From Halogeometricum pallidum JCM 14848 (GTDB taxonomy: Archaea > Halobacteriota > Halobacteria > Halobacteriales > Haloferacaceae), in the NCBI RefSeq assembly GCF_000337095.1, contig NZ_AOIV01000036.1:18246-55489 (forward strand): a DNA stretch of 37,244 nt. Direction: 5' to 3'. Numbering within the stretch: position 1 is the first letter of the stretch; every line of letters starts with the position of its first letter. Below, one piece after another: positions 14,034 through 36,404 of the stretch. Made by a program: the position numbers and the translations under genes. The notes under the pieces were generated by a model. The model was not told the origin of the DNA and searched no databases. It worked only from the letters and a program-made list of their open reading frames with translations.

Positions 14034-14999
14034 TTACAGTTGCTCCGCGTAGACTTCGAGGAGTTCTTGGTAGCGATTCCGAATCGTGACCATACTCACA
14101 TCCGCGGCGTTACTCACTGTTGCCTGGGTGAGCTGTTCGTTAGTCAAGTGAGTCGCTGCATAGAGGGCGGCTGCGGCTAATCCCGCAGGGCTCTTTCCGC
14201 TGTGAGTGCCGGTATTCTTTGCTACGTCAAGTAGCTCTCGTGCCGTTCGTTCAGCTTCATCACTGATTTCTAGGGTTGACGCGAATTGGGGAATGTACGT
14301 CGACGGATCCTCGGGCTCAATTTGTAGGCCAAGCTCGCGAGAGAGATAACGGTACGCTCGTTGGATGCGGATTTTCTCGACGCGACTGATGTCTGCAAAC
14401 GTGGTCAGCGGCCGTGGGAAATGCTGTTGCCGTGCAGCGGCATACAGTGAGGCGGTCGCCATCCCTTCGATAGACCGACCGGGGAGTAAATCCGATTCGA
14501 CGGCGCGGCGGTACAGGACTCCGGCCGTTTCGCGAACCGGCTCGGGGAGCCCCAGCGCGGAACCCATCCGCTGGATCTCACCAAGTGCTTGCTTGAGGTT
14601 TCGCTCCTGGGCATCTTTCGTCCGGAACCGTTCGTCCCATGTTCTGAGCCGCTCTAAGCGAGCACGTTTCTCCGTTGGAACGGCCCGTCCAGAGGCATCG
14701 GTATTCTGCCAGCCGATCGTCGTGCTGAGACCCTTATCATGCATCAACTGCGTCGTTGGAGCGCCGACGCGACTCTTTTCGTCCTGCTCCTCAGTATCGA
14801 AAGAACGCCACTCGGGACCGTGATCGAGTGCTCTGTCTTCGCAAATCAGCCCACAGTCTTCGCAGCGTGTCTCACCGTGCTCGTCATCGCGAACGATTCG
14901 TCCCTGACATTCCGGACAGGTAGTAAGCGACTGCGATTCGGCAGTCTGCTCACCGGTACTACTGCGATCGATTTCGGTGTTGAGTACTGTGTTCGTCAT
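14034..14999 (-). CDS. tfb: Transcription initiation factor TFB (TFIIB), copy 2
   Basis: TFIIB homologue of 321 residues. The zinc ribbon runs CPECQGRIVRDDEHGETRCE then DCG; the B-reader is DHGPEWRSF; two cyclin repeats follow (KQALGEIQRMGSALGLPEPV; HSGKSPAGLAAAALYAATHL) and it ends VSMVTIRNRYQELLEVYAEQL. The frame extends upstream to 15092, but the extra residues do not fit the family, so the ATG at 14999 is used. It is divergent from cydAB with a 25-bp palindrome between them, which raises the possibility of joint control. It is much closer to copy 1 than to copy 3. Confidence 0.95.
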   Translation of the reverse strand: MTNTVLNTEIDRSSTGEQTAESQSLTTCPECQGRIVRDDEHGETRCEDCGLICEDRALDHGPEWRSFDTEEQDEKSRVGAPTTQLMHDKGLSTTIGWQNTDASGRAVPTEKRARLERLRTWDERFRTKDAQERNLKQALGEIQRMGSALGLPEPVRETAGVLYRRAVESDLLPGRSIEGMATASLYAAARQQHFPRPLTTFADISRVEKIRIQRAYRYLSRELGLQIEPEDPSTYIPQFASTLEISDEAERTARELLDVAKNTGTHSGKSPAGLAAAALYAATHLTNEQLTQATVSNAADVSMVTIRNRYQELLEVYAEQL

Positions 15000-15081
15000 G
15001 TGGGTCTGTGAGATGCTGATCTTGGCCGTCGACTGAGTCTCTCTAGCAAAGCTATCGAAGTGATCAGGGATGAATAGATGG

Positions 15082-15106
15082 CGGATTCCCATTCGATGGG
15101 AATCCG
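15082..15106. promoter_or_regulatory. 25-bp perfect palindrome between tfb copy 2 and cydA
   Basis: Arms CGGATTCCCAT (15082-15092) and ATGGGAATCCG (15096-15106) are exact complements around a TCG spacer. The gap between tfb (start 14999) and cydA (start 15272) is 272 bp with no gene. An exact 11-bp inverted repeat with a 3-nt spacer is a good candidate binding site for a dimeric regulator. It could also form a hairpin, but a terminator is unlikely since it lies between divergent starts. Confidence 0.55.
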
Positions 15107-26052: not shown

Positions 26053-27009
26053 CTACGCTGATGCGACTTGGACCTCCCCGTCGACCAGCTTGGTAAGTTC
26101 TGTACGTCGCGCTCGAAGTGTCGCCGGCGTCGTTCCGGCGGCCGCTGCAACCTGTGCCTGTGTCAGCGACTCTCCGTGTTCACGACTGGCGAGATAGAGA
26201 CAGGCTGCAGCAACCCCAGACGGCTGAGAGCCGTTCGTAATGGACGTCTCATGCGCACGCTCGGCAAGCGTCCGCGCTCGACGACGAACCCGTGAATTGA
26301 CATTGAGTTCCGAGGCGAGTTTCGGAATGAGCGATTGTGGGGCGACGGGCTGTGTCGGGAGTCCCAACTCTCTGTTGAGCGTTTTGTACGCGTTCGTGAT
26401 ACTCGAGTGGTCGACTCGAGCAATGTCGACGAGGTCATCACGGGCGAGTGGTCGTCCGTGACACCGACAGACCCCGTAGACGCTGGCGGCGGCCATCGCT
26501 TCGATCGACCGGCCAAGCAAGAGGTCCTCGCGTTGGGCACTGCGAAAGAGCTGACACGCCTGGTCACGAATCGAACTAGCAAGTCCGAGAGCGCTTGCGA
26601 CTCTTCGAACTTCACCTAACCCGTGTGCGAGGTTGCGCTCGGCTTTCGACTGGAACCGCCCCCGCGTCTGCTCACGTCGCAGTCGGGCAAGCTGACATCG
26701 TTTCGACCCTGAGAGCGTGCGTCCCTTCCCATCGGTTCTGCGCCCGATCGTGGTCGATAAGCCCCGGTCGTGACGGGCCGCTGTGAGTGGAGCACCTGTC
26801 CGTTCGCGATTGCTGTTGTCGTCTTCGAACGAGCGCCACTCGGGGCCGTGGTCGATCTGCTGGTCTGCGATGACCAGCCCACAGTCTTCACAAACTGTTT
26901 CCACTGCGTTGGTCGCCACGTGGCCGTTGCATTCGGGACAGGTGTTCGAACTGGATTCACACTGGACGTCTTCGTCGAAGCTCGTTTCGTAGATGTCTCT
27001 GGTTGCCAT
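26053..27009 (-). CDS. tfb: Transcription initiation factor TFB (TFIIB), copy 3 (divergent)
   Basis: TFIIB homologue of 318 residues from the ATG at 27009. The zinc ribbon (CPECNGHVATNAVETVCEDC) and B-reader (DHGPEWRSF) are intact. The cyclin repeats are present but diverged from the other copies: AERNLAHGLGEVRRVASALG, RSIEAMAAASVYGVCRCHGR, and PSGVAAACLYLASREHGESL. The C-terminal recognition part (VAAAAGTTPATLRARRTELT) differs from the VSMVTIRNRYQELL of copies 1 and 2, so it probably reads different promoter sequences at the BRE. It shares a leader motif with the SWIM gene. Confidence 0.93.
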   Translation of the reverse strand: MATRDIYETSFDEDVQCESSSNTCPECNGHVATNAVETVCEDCGLVIADQQIDHGPEWRSFEDDNSNRERTGAPLTAARHDRGLSTTIGRRTDGKGRTLSGSKRCQLARLRREQTRGRFQSKAERNLAHGLGEVRRVASALGLASSIRDQACQLFRSAQREDLLLGRSIEAMAAASVYGVCRCHGRPLARDDLVDIARVDHSSITNAYKTLNRELGLPTQPVAPQSLIPKLASELNVNSRVRRRARTLAERAHETSITNGSQPSGVAAACLYLASREHGESLTQAQVAAAAGTTPATLRARRTELTKLVDGEVQVASA

Positions 27010-27080: not shown

Positions 27081-27091
27081 ACACTGCGGTC

Positions 27092-27153
27092 TCGTCGCCT
27101 CTCCAAGTGGTGACAGAAGGTGCGTGCTGAACTTAGAGGGAAAATTCAGCACA
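27092..27153 (+). repeat. Cassette-flanking repeat, copy A
   Basis: Positions 27112-27153 match 28418-28459 at 34 of 42 bases, including TGCGTGCTGAA and TCAGCACA. GTGCTGAA (27124-27131) and TTCAGCAC (27145-27152) form an 8-bp inverted repeat. The left part (27092-27111) aligns only loosely. It lies between tfb copy 3 and the first lipoprotein gene. Confidence 0.75.
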
Positions 27154-27193
27154 GTGAGCATGCATGTTTGACTGTAAATTTCAGTTCAGCAAG

Positions 27194-27202
27194 ATATTTT
27201 AT
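27194..27202 (+). promoter_or_regulatory. TATA box of the first cassette lipoprotein gene
   Basis: atattttat lies about 27 bp upstream of the ATG at 27225, the spacing expected for a leaderless haloarchaeal transcript. It lies just inside the repeat copy A, so each cassette may carry its own promoter. Confidence 0.5.
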
Positions 27203-27224
27203 GCATCAAAACTTTTGATTGAAT

Positions 27225-27677
27225 ATGCGTCGTCGAGCCCTCCTCTCTGGGACACTTGGTTTGGTAACGTTATCTGGACTTGCTGGTTGTTCTTCGTCCT
27301 CAGATGAAGGACAGGCAACGGTTGACCGAATCGTTCTCCGATCAGACACAGGACAACCTGAGCAGATGGATTTGACCCTTGTTTATGCACCACGCGATGG
27401 TTCTACTGAACGGCCCGTTTGGGGCAGCTACGACCTTCCTGAATCTGGTGACACAGTCATTGTAGATGATTTTGAGACTGGCTCTGGGTTCTATAGTTTA
27501 ACAGCTCACTCCCAGACCCACGATAATCTCGAAGTCGTCTCGGCAAATACTCTGAATGACGCTGTCGGAAACGATACTCTTCAGTTTGAAGTAGTCGTCA
27601 AACGGGCAGGGGATGTGTTTGCCAACTTGAGCAATACTCGTGACACTATCTCAATCCCCGGCTATTCTCGTGACTGA
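27225..27677 (+). CDS. Tat-type lipoprotein, first cassette gene
   Basis: Exported protein of 150 residues. The signal MRRRALLSGTLGLVTLSGLAGC has a twin arginine and a lipobox ending in Cys at about residue 22, typical of haloarchaeal Tat lipoproteins. The mature part starts SSSSDEGQATVDRIVLR and is rich in beta-strand-like residues (MDLTLVYAPRDGSTERPVWG); no family is recognised. The start is the ATG at 27225; a TTG two codons earlier is rejected. It is the only cassette gene that runs rightward. Confidence 0.85.
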   Translation: MRRRALLSGTLGLVTLSGLAGCSSSSDEGQATVDRIVLRSDTGQPEQMDLTLVYAPRDGSTERPVWGSYDLPESGDTVIVDDFETGSGFYSLTAHSQTHDNLEVVSANTLNDAVGNDTLQFEVVVKRAGDVFANLSNTRDTISIPGYSRD

Positions 27678-27705
27678 TTGGTTCAGAGATTACGATGCTG
27701 ACTAT

Positions 27706-27779
27706 GCGCGCTGAGTTCAGCACGACCGTACAAAGCTCACCAATCGCTGTCAGATTTCACGTGCAACACTCAGAGGGTG
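27706..27779 (+). repeat. Cassette-flanking repeat, copy B
   Basis: Positions 27706-27754 match 28375-28423 at 40 of 49 bases, with GCGCGCTG, TTCAGCACGACC, CTCACC and CGCTGTCAGA in common. The right end (CAGAGGGTG, 27771-27779) matches CGAGGGTG of copy C. It fills the gap between two convergent lipoprotein genes. Confidence 0.8.
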
Positions 27780-27785
27780 TGTCGG

Positions 27786-28310
27786 TCACTCTCCATAGTT
27801 GAGTTTCACGACACTCTCTTGCGGGGCATCAGCGCCATTGAGCGTCCATCTCTCAAGTATGGTGTAGATGTGATTTTGATAGTAGAACTCACCATCCATC
27901 CCATTGAGGGAGAAGACGAACGTGTCCTCTTCGATGGACGACGCAGGCTTGCTCCCGGATGGTCCTCCGAGATCAAATCGAGACAGGAAGACTGCAACAA
28001 ACTCTTCTTCATAGTTTATCGACTGCCACTCTGAGTGGGCGTGCTCAGGGAGGGTCTCGATCCGTAGCAACTCGTCAGCCTGTTCCTCGGTTGTAATGAG
28101 AGTTGCATAGTAAGGTGGCCCAGTTTGCGTCGTTATGCTTGATGCCACGACTGCCTCTGTTGGTTGGTTCGTAGTGTACCTGGCATCGAACTGTGGAACA
28201 AACGGAGACGATGTGAAACTCTGAGTCGAGTTACACCCGGACAAAAGGGAAATGCCACAAGTTGTCCCAAACAGCTGGAGAGCACGGCGTCTGGAGGGGC
28301 CATCCGTCAT
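27786..28310 (-). CDS. Tat-type lipoprotein, second cassette gene
   Basis: Exported protein of 174 residues from the ATG at 28310. The signal is SRRRALQLFGTTCGISLLSG followed by the lipobox Cys. The mature domain contains TTEEQADELLRIETLPEHAH and YEEEFVAVFLSRF, resembling haloarchaeal secreted proteins of unknown function. No catalytic motif is seen. It runs leftward, between repeat copies B and C. Confidence 0.82.
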   Translation of the reverse strand: MTDGPSRRRALQLFGTTCGISLLSGCNSTQSFTSSPFVPQFDARYTTNQPTEAVVASSITTQTGPPYYATLITTEEQADELLRIETLPEHAHSEWQSINYEEEFVAVFLSRFDLGGPSGSKPASSIEEDTFVFSLNGMDGEFYYQNHIYTILERWTLNGADAPQESVVKLNYGE

Positions 28311-28374
28311 CTGTACAATATATTTCATCAATAGTAGTATGAACCCAACGGTTTTGTCTGTCTCTGAGCGACTT

Positions 28375-28459
28375 GCGCGCTGTATTCAGCACGACCACAG
28401 AAACCTCACCGGACGCTGTCAGAAGCTGCGTGCTGAATCTCGAGGGTGAAATCAGCACA
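28375..28459 (+). repeat. Cassette-flanking repeat, copy C (most complete)
   Basis: An 85-bp unit. ATTCAGCACG (28384-28393) and CGTGCTGAAT (28429-28438) are a perfect 10-bp inverted repeat 35 nt apart; a third copy of the core, ATCAGCAC (28451-28458), follows. It is the reference for copies A, B and D. It lies between the second and third cassette genes. Confidence 0.85.
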
Positions 28460-28480
28460 TCAACAGATAGGTGCGGACGT

Positions 28481-28882
28481 TCAATTGACAAGTTCGCTTA
28501 TTAACCCACCTACAGCCGCGATTGTCAAGACGCCGATGATGATGGGAGTACTCGGGTCAAACCCAGCTACAACAGCGAGGTACGCACCAACAACAGCCAC
28601 AGCACTAGCGGGTATCAAGGCGCTGATAGCGAGTCGTCGGCCCCGTTCTGTTTGTGCACTCGCAATGTTACGAGCAAGAAGTATGCCACCGACGGTGGCG
28701 ATCACAAGCGAACCTGCTGCGATGAAGAGCGGCAGGAACAGATTCCCAAAGCCGAAAAGAGGCCTGATTCCGGTAGCGGGCGGTGGGTAGGAAATGACGA
28801 CAGTTACGAGTGCGAATACAATCAGTATTCCTCCGAGACGATTCAATTGAGGGACTGTTTGATTCTGTGGAACACGATTCAT
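28481..28882 (-). CDS. Four-helix membrane protein, third cassette gene
   Basis: Protein of 133 residues with about four membrane helices (residues ~17-35, 47-70, 84-105 and 111-130): GGILIVFALVTVVISY, FLPLFIAAGSLVIATVGGIL, LAISALIPASAVAVVGAYLA and TPIIIGVLTIAAVGGLISEL. No family is recognised. It lies leftward between repeat copies C and D. Confidence 0.8.
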   Translation of the reverse strand: MNRVPQNQTVPQLNRLGGILIVFALVTVVISYPPPATGIRPLFGFGNLFLPLFIAAGSLVIATVGGILLARNIASAQTERGRRLAISALIPASAVAVVGAYLAVVAGFDPSTPIIIGVLTIAAVGGLISELVN

Positions 28883-29000
28883 ACAACTGGCAACCTATTC
28901 AGTGAAAATATGCTTTGTGGAAGTATCAACGAGAGAATACGTGTATTCTCGTCTCGGGTGGTTTCCAAGCAGGTAATCCGATCTGTTCTGGTCTGAAGGA

Positions 29001-29067
29001 CTCGCACGTTCTATTCAGCACGACAACTGAAACGTCATCGATGGCGGCTAGAAGTCACAGACTGAGC
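29001..29067 (+). repeat. Cassette-flanking repeat, copy D
   Basis: ATTCAGCACGAC at 29013-29024 is identical to copy C, and 29013-29054 matches 28384-28425 at 32 of 42 bases. The right arm is weaker (GACTGA in place of GTGCTGA). It lies between the four-helix gene and the lipoprotein/propeller pair. Confidence 0.7.
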
Positions 29068-29124
29068 AACTGCCTACCGTGGGGCTCGCCCCAACACTGG
29101 CCGTCAAATCGACCGCTTGACCGA

Positions 29125-34104: not shown

Positions 34105-34221
34105 CCCCTATCGATTTGTTGTGTGAGAAACCACCAAACACCTGGGCACACCTCTATCGACTTGTTCTCGATGTCGGGTGAGCTAGGTCGTCACCGCACC
34201 CTCGCCCCTATCGATTTGTTC
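34105..34221 (+). repeat. Origin repeat cluster 1 (three copies, after orc1)
   Basis: CCCCTATCGATTTGTTG at 34105-34121, the variant CCTCTATCGACTTGTTC at 34151-34167 and the exact CCCCTATCGATTTGTTC at 34205-34221, all in plus orientation. They lie 11-127 bp beyond the orc1 stop codon. The CCCC run is a G-string on the other strand, as in archaeal origin-recognition boxes. Confidence 0.85.
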
Positions 34222-34231
34222 CGAGAAGAAG

Positions 34232-35557
34232 CTACTTATTGATCTGAGCCTTCACGACGGTCCGTAGTTCGTCCACGTTGACGTCCTTCAGTCGCGAATC
34301 TTCTCGAAGTGTCTCGATGATGGTGTTCGGGTTCTCTCCAAACGTAAACTCGAGGTAGCTTCCCGAATGCGGTCCCTGACTTTTCCGCTCGGTCTCAACC
34401 AAGGAATACGTCGTGAGTTCCTTCATCTTGTTCACATACGTCTCCTGGTGATACTGATCTGCATCGAGTGTCCCCGTCAGATACTGATACACGCGATAGC
34501 CGAGCGGACTTTTCGCTGCACCAGTCCCGGTTTCCCGAGCAACCGCAGCAGTCGCAAAGAGACAGAGCTTCTTCTGGGTGCTAATCCCACGAGTCACTTC
34601 GAGTACGCGGTTCTTCTCGACTTTGTCTTGGGCTTCTCGGATGTGCTCTTCGCGAACCTGGTCCGCATTTGCTTTCTCAGCGATCGACCCTGCTGTTCGC
34701 ATGAGGTCGATCGCCTTCCGTGCGTCCCCGTTCGTTTGTGCAGCGAACGCGGCAGCTAGCGGAATCACGTCGTTACTGAGTGCGTTTTCGTGGAAAGCAT
34801 CTTCCCGAGCCCAAAGAATCTCTCGGAGCTGGTTGGCATCATAGTCGCTGAAGTGGACGTCCTCCGGCGTGAACGAACTAAGTGCTCGACTGCCAACGTT
34901 CTCCATCATCTTTGTGTCGTTAGTGATGGCGGTTACAGAGACTTGGGCGGTGATCTCGTCCGTACTCCCTGCGCGAGAAAGCTGGTACAGAAGACGGGAG
35001 AAGGCCGGCTCGTCCATATCTCGGCGACCGACGAGCATATCAAGTTCATCGAGGATGAAGACGACAGTATCGTAGTGTTCGTTAATAAGGCGGTAGAGTT
35101 CTCGCCATTTCTTCTTGTTCGGGATACCGTGTTCTGGGACCTCAACGGTCGCTCCGACGTCGTTCGCGACTTTTCGGGCTAGCTCGTAAACGGCTGAGCC
35201 GAGAGTCCCGACGTTCTGGCAGTTCATCTGGATTACGCCGAATCTGATGTCACGACTTTCACAGAGTTCGAGGATGTTCGAACAGACGGCGTTAATGATG
35301 AGCGATTTTCCAGTCCCTGACGGCCCGTAGAGGAAGAGGTTTGGAGGGCGCTCATTACTAATCGCGACTCGAAGATGCTGGGTGATGTCGGTGAGCTGGG
35401 AGTCGCGACCGACGATACGTTCCTCGTCGACGATCTCGTTCGGTTCGAGAAGAGAACGGTTCTTGATGAGACTCGCGGCTTCTTCCTGCTCGAGGATGAG
35501 ATCTTTAATAGAACCCGTGGACTCGGGTGTTTCCTCGGGACCAGGATCCGTGGGCAT
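34232..35557 (-). CDS. orc1: Orc1/Cdc6 replication initiator
   Basis: AAA+ initiator of 441 residues from the ATG at 35557 (a GTG at 35569 is possible). Walker A is FLYGPSGTGKS (about 75-85), Walker B VVFILDELDML with Asp170/Glu171, sensor I AITNDTKMMENVG, and the lid region GDARKAIDLMRTAGSIA. The C-terminal winged helix (RVYQYLTGTLDADQYHQETY; YSLVETERKSQGPHSGSYLE) binds origin repeats. It lies between two sets of repeats, the usual arrangement of an Orc1 with its own origin, and would start replication of this replicon. Confidence 0.97.
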   Translation of the reverse strand: MPTDPGPEETPESTGSIKDLILEQEEAASLIKNRSLLEPNEIVDEERIVGRDSQLTDITQHLRVAISNERPPNLFLYGPSGTGKSLIINAVCSNILELCESRDIRFGVIQMNCQNVGTLGSAVYELARKVANDVGATVEVPEHGIPNKKKWRELYRLINEHYDTVVFILDELDMLVGRRDMDEPAFSRLLYQLSRAGSTDEITAQVSVTAITNDTKMMENVGSRALSSFTPEDVHFSDYDANQLREILWAREDAFHENALSNDVIPLAAAFAAQTNGDARKAIDLMRTAGSIAEKANADQVREEHIREAQDKVEKNRVLEVTRGISTQKKLCLFATAAVARETGTGAAKSPLGYRVYQYLTGTLDADQYHQETYVNKMKELTTYSLVETERKSQGPHSGSYLEFTFGENPNTIIETLREDSRLKDVNVDELRTVVKAQINK

Positions 35558-35733
35558 ACCCCACCCCACTCTATCAGGATACTAAAAGATTCCCCTGTCG
35601 ATTTCTTTTCTACCGTTATGAGGCTCATCGGTACAGAATCAACGAGTTATAGCGTTCTGCTCGCAGACCTCCGACGATTTGTTAGAGAGGCTTTCTTTGG
35701 ACGACATCACGAGAAATGAACAACACCCTCTCA

Positions 35734-36055
35734 CCCCTATCGATTTGTTCTACCCACAAAGGAGGGGTAGGGGTCACTCGATGTTGATCACGCTGTCGCC
35801 ACCCCAAAGCCGAATTATCGTTGGATGAGCTGTTGTCTTCTCTATCTATTCTTCTTTCTTCTAGTTCTAGTACTAGACTAGCTAGAGTAGACACACCCCT
35901 ATCGATTTGTTCTGATCAATTGGAGTCGTTCGATTTGGCTTCGTTTCTTGACTTAAACAGGTTCCTGTAACGTGGGTGTGGTCAGCCTCTACATCTCCAA
36001 TACAAGTCCTTAGACTTGCTTCTGAACTCGGTCAGTCTCCCCTATCGATTTGTTC
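35734..36055 (+). repeat. Origin repeat cluster 2 (three exact copies, plus orientation)
   Basis: CCCCTATCGATTTGTTC at 35734-35750, 35896-35912 and 36039-36055. The first also shares the preceding ten bases, CACCCTCTCA, with the inverted copy at 36191-36217. Confidence 0.88.
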
Positions 36056-36190
36056 TACATCGTCCTCGTCTCCCGAAAAAGTCGAAAACAGTCTTAAAAA
36101 AGCAGAAAATATGGGTTATAGCTCCCAATCACGGTATCTCTCATTACTTCCACTGGCGTCAAACTGCCCCGGTGGTGCTCTTTCCCGGGA

Positions 36191-36404
36191 GAACAAATCG
36201 ATAGGGGTGAGAGGGTGGTTCCAAAGTCAGTACCGTAATATGCAGAATCCGTTCCCCAGCAAGGCTTTCCGCGTTCATAATTCCATCCTGCAATTCGGGA
36301 ATGTCTCTCCTCAATGATCGAACTGCCCATAGCTACGCCCCTGAACAAATCGATAGAGGTGACTCTGTGTACGCGCGTGGTCTCGGTGAACAAGTCGATA
36401 GAGG
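36191..36404 (-). repeat. Origin repeat cluster 3 (three copies, minus orientation)
   Basis: GAACAAATCGATAGGGG at 36191-36207 is the exact complement of the consensus; GAACAAATCGATAGAGG at 36343-36359 and GAACAAGTCGATAGAGG at 36388-36404 are variants. The outer copies on both flanks carry the same TATC-preceding C-to-T (CCTC) change, as if they formed a second class of sites. Confidence 0.85.

Follow-up and report, generated by a model that had tools for sequence, protein, structure and literature searches.

The 37-kb window (the whole stretch of DNA that was analysed, 37,244 nucleotides from Halogeometricum pallidum JCM 14848) contains, at 27.09-29.07 kb, what is probably a haloarchaeal cassette array that was delivered as a non-autonomous transposon and is reshuffled at its internal repeats. 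Cassettes at fixed sites differ between relatives, with breakpoints inside the repeats. Arrays and single cassettes have been inserted as units bounded by terminal inverted repeats (TIRs), with an 8-bp target duplication.

The array in the 37-kb window

An earlier note, made from the letters alone, described same-direction repeats alternating with single genes in this section, and the profile and blastn searches confirm this. The order along the array is a half repeat, a gene, a full repeat, a gene, a full repeat, a gene and a partial repeat, and copies A-D share a single direction, all on the + strand. The four copies claimed in the note were located, but of the repeat unit of ~95 bp only B and C are full; copy A is the right half only and copy D the left part only. 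Copy A (27098-27153, +; profile 40-92; nhmmer, and blastn with E 5.9e-5) forms the left edge of the array, and its R core at 27124-27152 (+) reads GTGCTGAACTT-AGAGGGA-AAATTCAGCAC. Copy B (27694-27789, +) has its L core at 27695-27723 and its R core, with a degenerate 3' arm, at 27761-27789. Copy C (28363-28464, +; blastn and nhmmer) contains the L core CTGAGCGACTT-GCGCGCT-GTATTCAGCAC at 28364-28392 (+) and the R core GTGCTGAATCT-CGAGGGT-GAAATCAGCAC at 28430-28458 (+). Copy D (28992-29056, +; profile 1-63), with its L core at 28993-29021, forms the right edge. With copy C as the blastn query against its own genome, copies B, D and A were recovered at E-values of 1.2e-7, 1.7e-5 and 5.9e-5, and two further copies were found on another contig (5e-12 and 3.5e-11). 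The exact word TTCAGCAC occurs six times in the window, every time inside the array, where 1.2 occurrences are expected; this number was reached in 0 of 100 shuffles of the window.

The three genes correspond to open reading frames for a 150-aa predicted exported lipoprotein (cassette 1, 27225-27677, +; lipobox LAGC by eye), a second predicted exported lipoprotein of ~174 aa (cassette 2, 27786-28310, -; lipobox LLSGC by eye) and a 133-aa predicted membrane protein (cassette 3, 28481-28882, -). A Pfam search gave no match for the products of cassettes 1 and 2. A decayed left TIR, GGTCTCGTCGCCTCTCCAAG, is located at 27088-27107 (+), as judged from the left-edge consensus and from alignment to locus L012 of Halogranum amylolyticum, in which GGTCTCGTCGAACTCCTCAG is the better-kept counterpart. 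The fragment GACTGAGCAACTGCC at 29060-29074 (+) is a possible decayed right TIR, an uncertain assignment made by inspection only against the consensus right end CTGAGGRTTTCAACAGAGCC.

Other features were observed around the array. TFIIB-like N-terminal sequence is present in three window genes (39-995, 14034-15092 and 26053-27009), and Pfam supports this identity only for 26053-27009, the gene adjoining the array. The tfb-SWIM-array-OB-like neighbourhood is also present in Haloferax marisrubri (L063). At 34192-36362, a core of ~17 bp, CCCCTATCGATTTGTTC, is repeated in both orientations, and the gene amid these repeats (34232-35557) has, by eye, an Orc1/Cdc6 initiator-like N-terminus; together they are possibly a plasmid replication origin.

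Distribution and anatomy of the repeat

In a family-wide search the repeat was detected in 109 of the 170 genomes of the family of H. pallidum, and focused searches put the count at ~40 copies per genome for four of them. It also matches 70 of 72,556 plasmid records; all those listed are haloarchaeal, with plasmids of Haladaptatus, Haloarcula, Natrinema, Halobaculum, Haloprofundus and others. The source species of the repeat loci include Halogranum rubrum, Halogranum amylolyticum, Haloferax prahovense, Haloferax profundi and Haloferax marisrubri. The repeat has no match in Rfam.

An iterated repeat profile, run over 95 loci (957 kb), detected 360 repeats; 224 units lie between two adjacent copies that point the same way. 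One gene is predicted in 170 of these units, two to four in 32 and none in 22; the gene counts are approximate, the predictor being a purpose-built codon-bias scorer. Neighbouring repeats point in the same direction in 206 cases versus 4 in opposite directions, and the genes of single-gene cassettes are mixed in direction (74 + and 96 -). At L044 (1436-8027) and L053 (8029-17184) the repeat direction flips from - to + between neighbouring arrays, with several genes in between. The edges seen in the window are general across genomes: left edges of arrays are right half repeats and right edges are left halves. Arrays reach about 20 cassettes, and their content is very diverse, with only 22 homologous unit pairs among the 224 units. 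A set of 104 cassette proteins falls into 67 Pfam families of at most three members each, including PIN, methyltransferase, CBS, hydrolase and nuclease families.

Terminal inverted repeats and insertion

The left-edge consensus of the arrays starts with GGCTCTGTTGAAAYCCTCAG and the right edges terminate in its complement. GGCTCTGTTGAAAYCCTCAG is an IS5-type terminal inverted repeat at the outer ends of the arrays. Perfect 8-bp duplications were found at 11 TIR-bounded elements in several genomes, which include single-gene cassettes, one 125-bp gene-less MITE and three transposase-encoding copies. In H. pallidum itself, a TIR-bounded single cassette (L069, 8743-10848) has GTCTACAC duplicated on both sides. 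An array of three cassettes (L058) shows an 8/8 target duplication, CACTCGCC, as does an array of two cassettes (L190, ATTTTTCC), for which five sister species have the uninterrupted, empty target site (94-95% identity). Among TIR-bounded repeat groups, 5 of 16 have a duplication match of 7-8/8, where 0.36 are expected. The gene-less MITE, at L111 1501-1625, shares these terminal repeats and is flanked by a perfect 8-bp duplication, and L111-like spacings of the terminal repeat are present in other genomes as well.

An IS with identical ends encodes an IS5-family transposase of 273-275 aa (NF033579, 1.3e-66), and its copies L094, L125 and L126 are also flanked by 8-bp duplications. One IS end carries a related subterminal motif, CGTGCTAAATAG. 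An extra passenger ORF is found in two copies (L094 1501-2804 and L125 139-1740; 90 and 185 aa), and in these the transposase gene looks like just another cassette. The transposase was detected in 108 of 167 genomes, and the IS is also present in genomes without detected repeats. The IS6 family was rejected as the source of the array ends; the resident IS6 copy has different ends (GGCACTGTCTAGTTAA). The earlier view that the array does not fit an IS must be revised with regard to the ends, since IS5-type TIRs and 8-bp duplications occur in many arrays and cassettes; these are non-autonomous transposons. In the window array the ends are decayed and a target duplication is not visible, and a search of the H. 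pallidum genome found no close copy of the transposase. This array may therefore be immobile now.

The most likely mechanism is the following. A cassette is a single gene (seldom several) of either orientation between conserved subterminal sequences, and IS5-type TIRs form the outer ends, both of cassettes that stand alone and of complete arrays. Such a unit inserts with an 8-bp target duplication, and we infer that it is moved in trans, most likely by the IS5-family transposase. Inside arrays, neighbouring cassettes would meet, right end to left end, in a fixed joint of ~95 bp from which the 20-bp outer repeats are missing; this composition is deduced from comparison of the inner and outer sequences. 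Recombination between joints would add, delete or swap cassettes while the flanks remain unmoved, with breakpoints as observed. The exchange would be carried out either by host homologous recombination or by a putative site-specific recombinase at two dyad cores.

Exchange of cassettes between relatives

The window and Halogranum amylolyticum (L012/L169) are ~91% identical to the left of the array and ~96% identical from copy C rightward. Between these shared flanks two cassettes are found in the window and one different cassette in Halogranum amylolyticum. On the left, the identity extends through AGAGGG in copy A; on the right, it restarts with TTCAGCACG in copy C. Both breakpoints sit inside repeats, beside both core spacers. 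The DNA of cassette 3 is 97.6% identical in Halogranum amylolyticum L169/L170. In Haloferax profundi and Haloferax prahovense the flanks are 88-90% identical up to the half repeat, with zero common cassettes, at two sites. The array genes of Haladaptatus YSMS36 and DYSN1 are the same by annotation, so that this pair says nothing about breakpoints.

The comparisons in Halogranum amylolyticum and Haloferax support the earlier proposal of a cassette array in which genes come and go; where the mostly single-gene cassettes are gained, lost or replaced, the breakpoints lie in the repeats. The two observations that were to speak against it, frequent repeats without a gene between them and a gene order fixed in all relatives, were not made: only 22 of the 224 units lack a predicted gene, and the order varies. 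Comparisons of relatives of this kind were called for in the note.

For cassettes shared by different arrays, the upstream boundary of homology lies at positions 77-88 (combined-likelihood best 83), which is at or just past the R spacer. On the downstream side the boundary is diffuse, with a combined optimum of 6 and individual values of 0-40. One array edge is an inner/outer hybrid that switches near position 40, outside the cores.

The two cores of the joint

The L core is GTGACCGACTC-GCGCCCT-GTATTCAGCAC and the R core is GTGCTGAATAC-AGAGGGT-GTATTCAGCAC; the dyad patterns are GTG-N8-GCGCCCT-G..TTCAGCAC and GTG-N8-AGAGGGT-G..TTCAGCAC, respectively. In both, 11-bp partly inverted arms flank a 7-bp spacer. 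Within the spacers, AGAG and GCGC rank with the most strongly conserved positions (1.5-1.7 bits), and the two cores have different spacers. A layout of the tyrosine-recombinase type, with inverted arms and a conserved spacer, is present, and breakpoints lie near the R spacer and are diffuse at the L core. Weak covariation was seen between arms 74-75 and 85-86 (p 0.002, without correction for relatedness). The proximal arms (profile 69-72 and 3-6) occur as a few discrete sequences, CTGA, CAAC, CAAG, ACAC, ACCG and CGAG, unlike random drift; no link of these to the cassette partner or to the L core of the same repeat was found. The centre of the joint, CTGTCAG, is conserved and differs from the outer ends.

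Possible explanations of the exchange

In their overall look, with same-direction repeats alternating with single diverse genes, the arrays resemble integrons, and the clustering of same-direction sites with one gene between them is of the integron type (206 versus 4; 170/224). However, the attC motif RYYYAAC...GTTRRRY, in order, occurs in 0 of 70 full copies, and gene direction is mixed. A foldback is absent: the mean DNA fold z is 0.06 over 40 full copies, only some one in four copies keeps the palindrome intact, and strong covariation between the palindrome arms 19-28 and 66-76 was not found. The suggestion that the repeat can fold like a recombination site is not borne out. No integrase family is among the Pfam families listed for the cassettes, tyrosine recombinases near the arrays show no consistent association, and the co-occurring recombinase gene which the earlier note proposed to look for was found neither inside the cassettes nor consistently beside the arrays. 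A plasmid tyrosine integrase 594 bp from a half repeat (L001) was rejected as a candidate, its close homologs being confined to few genera and its type missing from the repeat-rich genomes G028, G031, G164 and G169. No circular cassettes were observed. The array is almost certainly neither an integron proper nor a CALIN whose attC sites have degenerated, in agreement with the note. An ordinary MITE, terminator or regulatory repeat lying between genes by chance is scarcely more credible: the 125-bp gene-less MITE shows that such an element with the same terminal repeats exists, but the fixed direction, the half repeats at array edges, the single diverse genes between copies and the content swapped between fixed flanks argue against it.

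Within the transposon-delivered array, it is close to an even matter, leaning slightly to the negative, whether host homologous recombination alone changes the content, the cores then being subterminal sites for transposase binding that descend from the IS. Since some exchange breakpoints, as in the hybrid edge switching near position 40, fall outside the proposed cores, ordinary homologous recombination could be enough; the motif CGTGCTAAATAG at the IS end and the failure to find a recombinase in or consistently near the arrays are in accordance with this. However, the repeats are just ~75-85% identical over 92 bp, and the inner joint is uniform in different genera, with a conserved centre unlike the ends, which suggests a selected site. 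Site-specific exchange at two heterospecific cores, by a putative and probably tyrosine recombinase, can be put forward only tentatively. The R-core spacer AGAGGGT would be the cassette start and the L-core spacer GCGCCCT the cassette end, a natural analogue of recombinase-mediated cassette exchange. The inverted arms and differing conserved spacers, the upstream boundaries at 77-88, the window breakpoints beside both spacers and the weak arm covariation (uncorrected for relatedness) are consistent with this, while the missing recombinase, the diffuse downstream breakpoints (0-40) and the discrete proximal-arm sequences, which break the dyad, are against it. Repeated homologous exchange would likewise drive breakpoints toward the cassette; the boundary pattern fits the two-site tyrosine-recombinase model and also such exchange. 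The wider proposal of a haloarchaeal system that is dedicated to cassette recombination and has no relation to integrons, with a hypothetical recombinase that swaps single-gene cassettes between two heterospecific cores in transposon-delivered arrays, is held with the same reserve.

Significance and comparison with known systems

Haloarchaea are known for heavy gene exchange. No published description of the haloarchaeal cassette arrays or repeat sequences was found in the open-access literature searched, nor was a general cassette platform for haloarchaea found described in the searchable open literature. The platform is present in most family genomes examined, and its cargo includes toxin-antitoxin-like PIN proteins, nucleases, lipoproteins, enzymes and many unknown genes. 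Repeat-bounded cassettes provide a simple rule for spotting recently mobile genes. The arrays also suggest a route by which transposon ends evolve into an integron-like platform, which is testable in Haloferax.

Like integrons and CALINs, including archaeal integrons (PMC9668308), the haloarchaeal arrays alternate same-direction repeats with single, diverse, mostly unknown genes, and their content varies between relatives at fixed flanks. Unlike them, they have no attC core, conserved foldback or linked IntI, their gene direction is mixed, and they often lie between IS5-type inverted repeats flanked by target duplications. Haloarchaea are not mentioned in the searchable text of the archaeal integron paper (PMC9668308). 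The ISH2-type MITEs of Haloquadratum (PMC3119063) are likewise short non-autonomous elements moved in trans, and one type carries an ORF; here, in contrast, the cassettes are diverse, form arrays of up to about 20 and are swapped. With the IS5 family the arrays share the outer ends and the 8-bp duplication of the IS with the IS5-family transposase, but they encode no transposase of their own. Mobile insertion cassettes (MICs) are similar in having transposase-free passenger genes between IS-type inverted repeats, a target duplication and presumed movement in trans. IS-type TIRs without a transposase and the 8-bp duplication of the parent IS are found here as well, the latter not being visible at the window array. 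To our knowledge, MICs have not been described in arrays where a uniform composite repeat, itself exchanged, joins different cassettes. The arrays with exchangeable joints go beyond the MIC kind.
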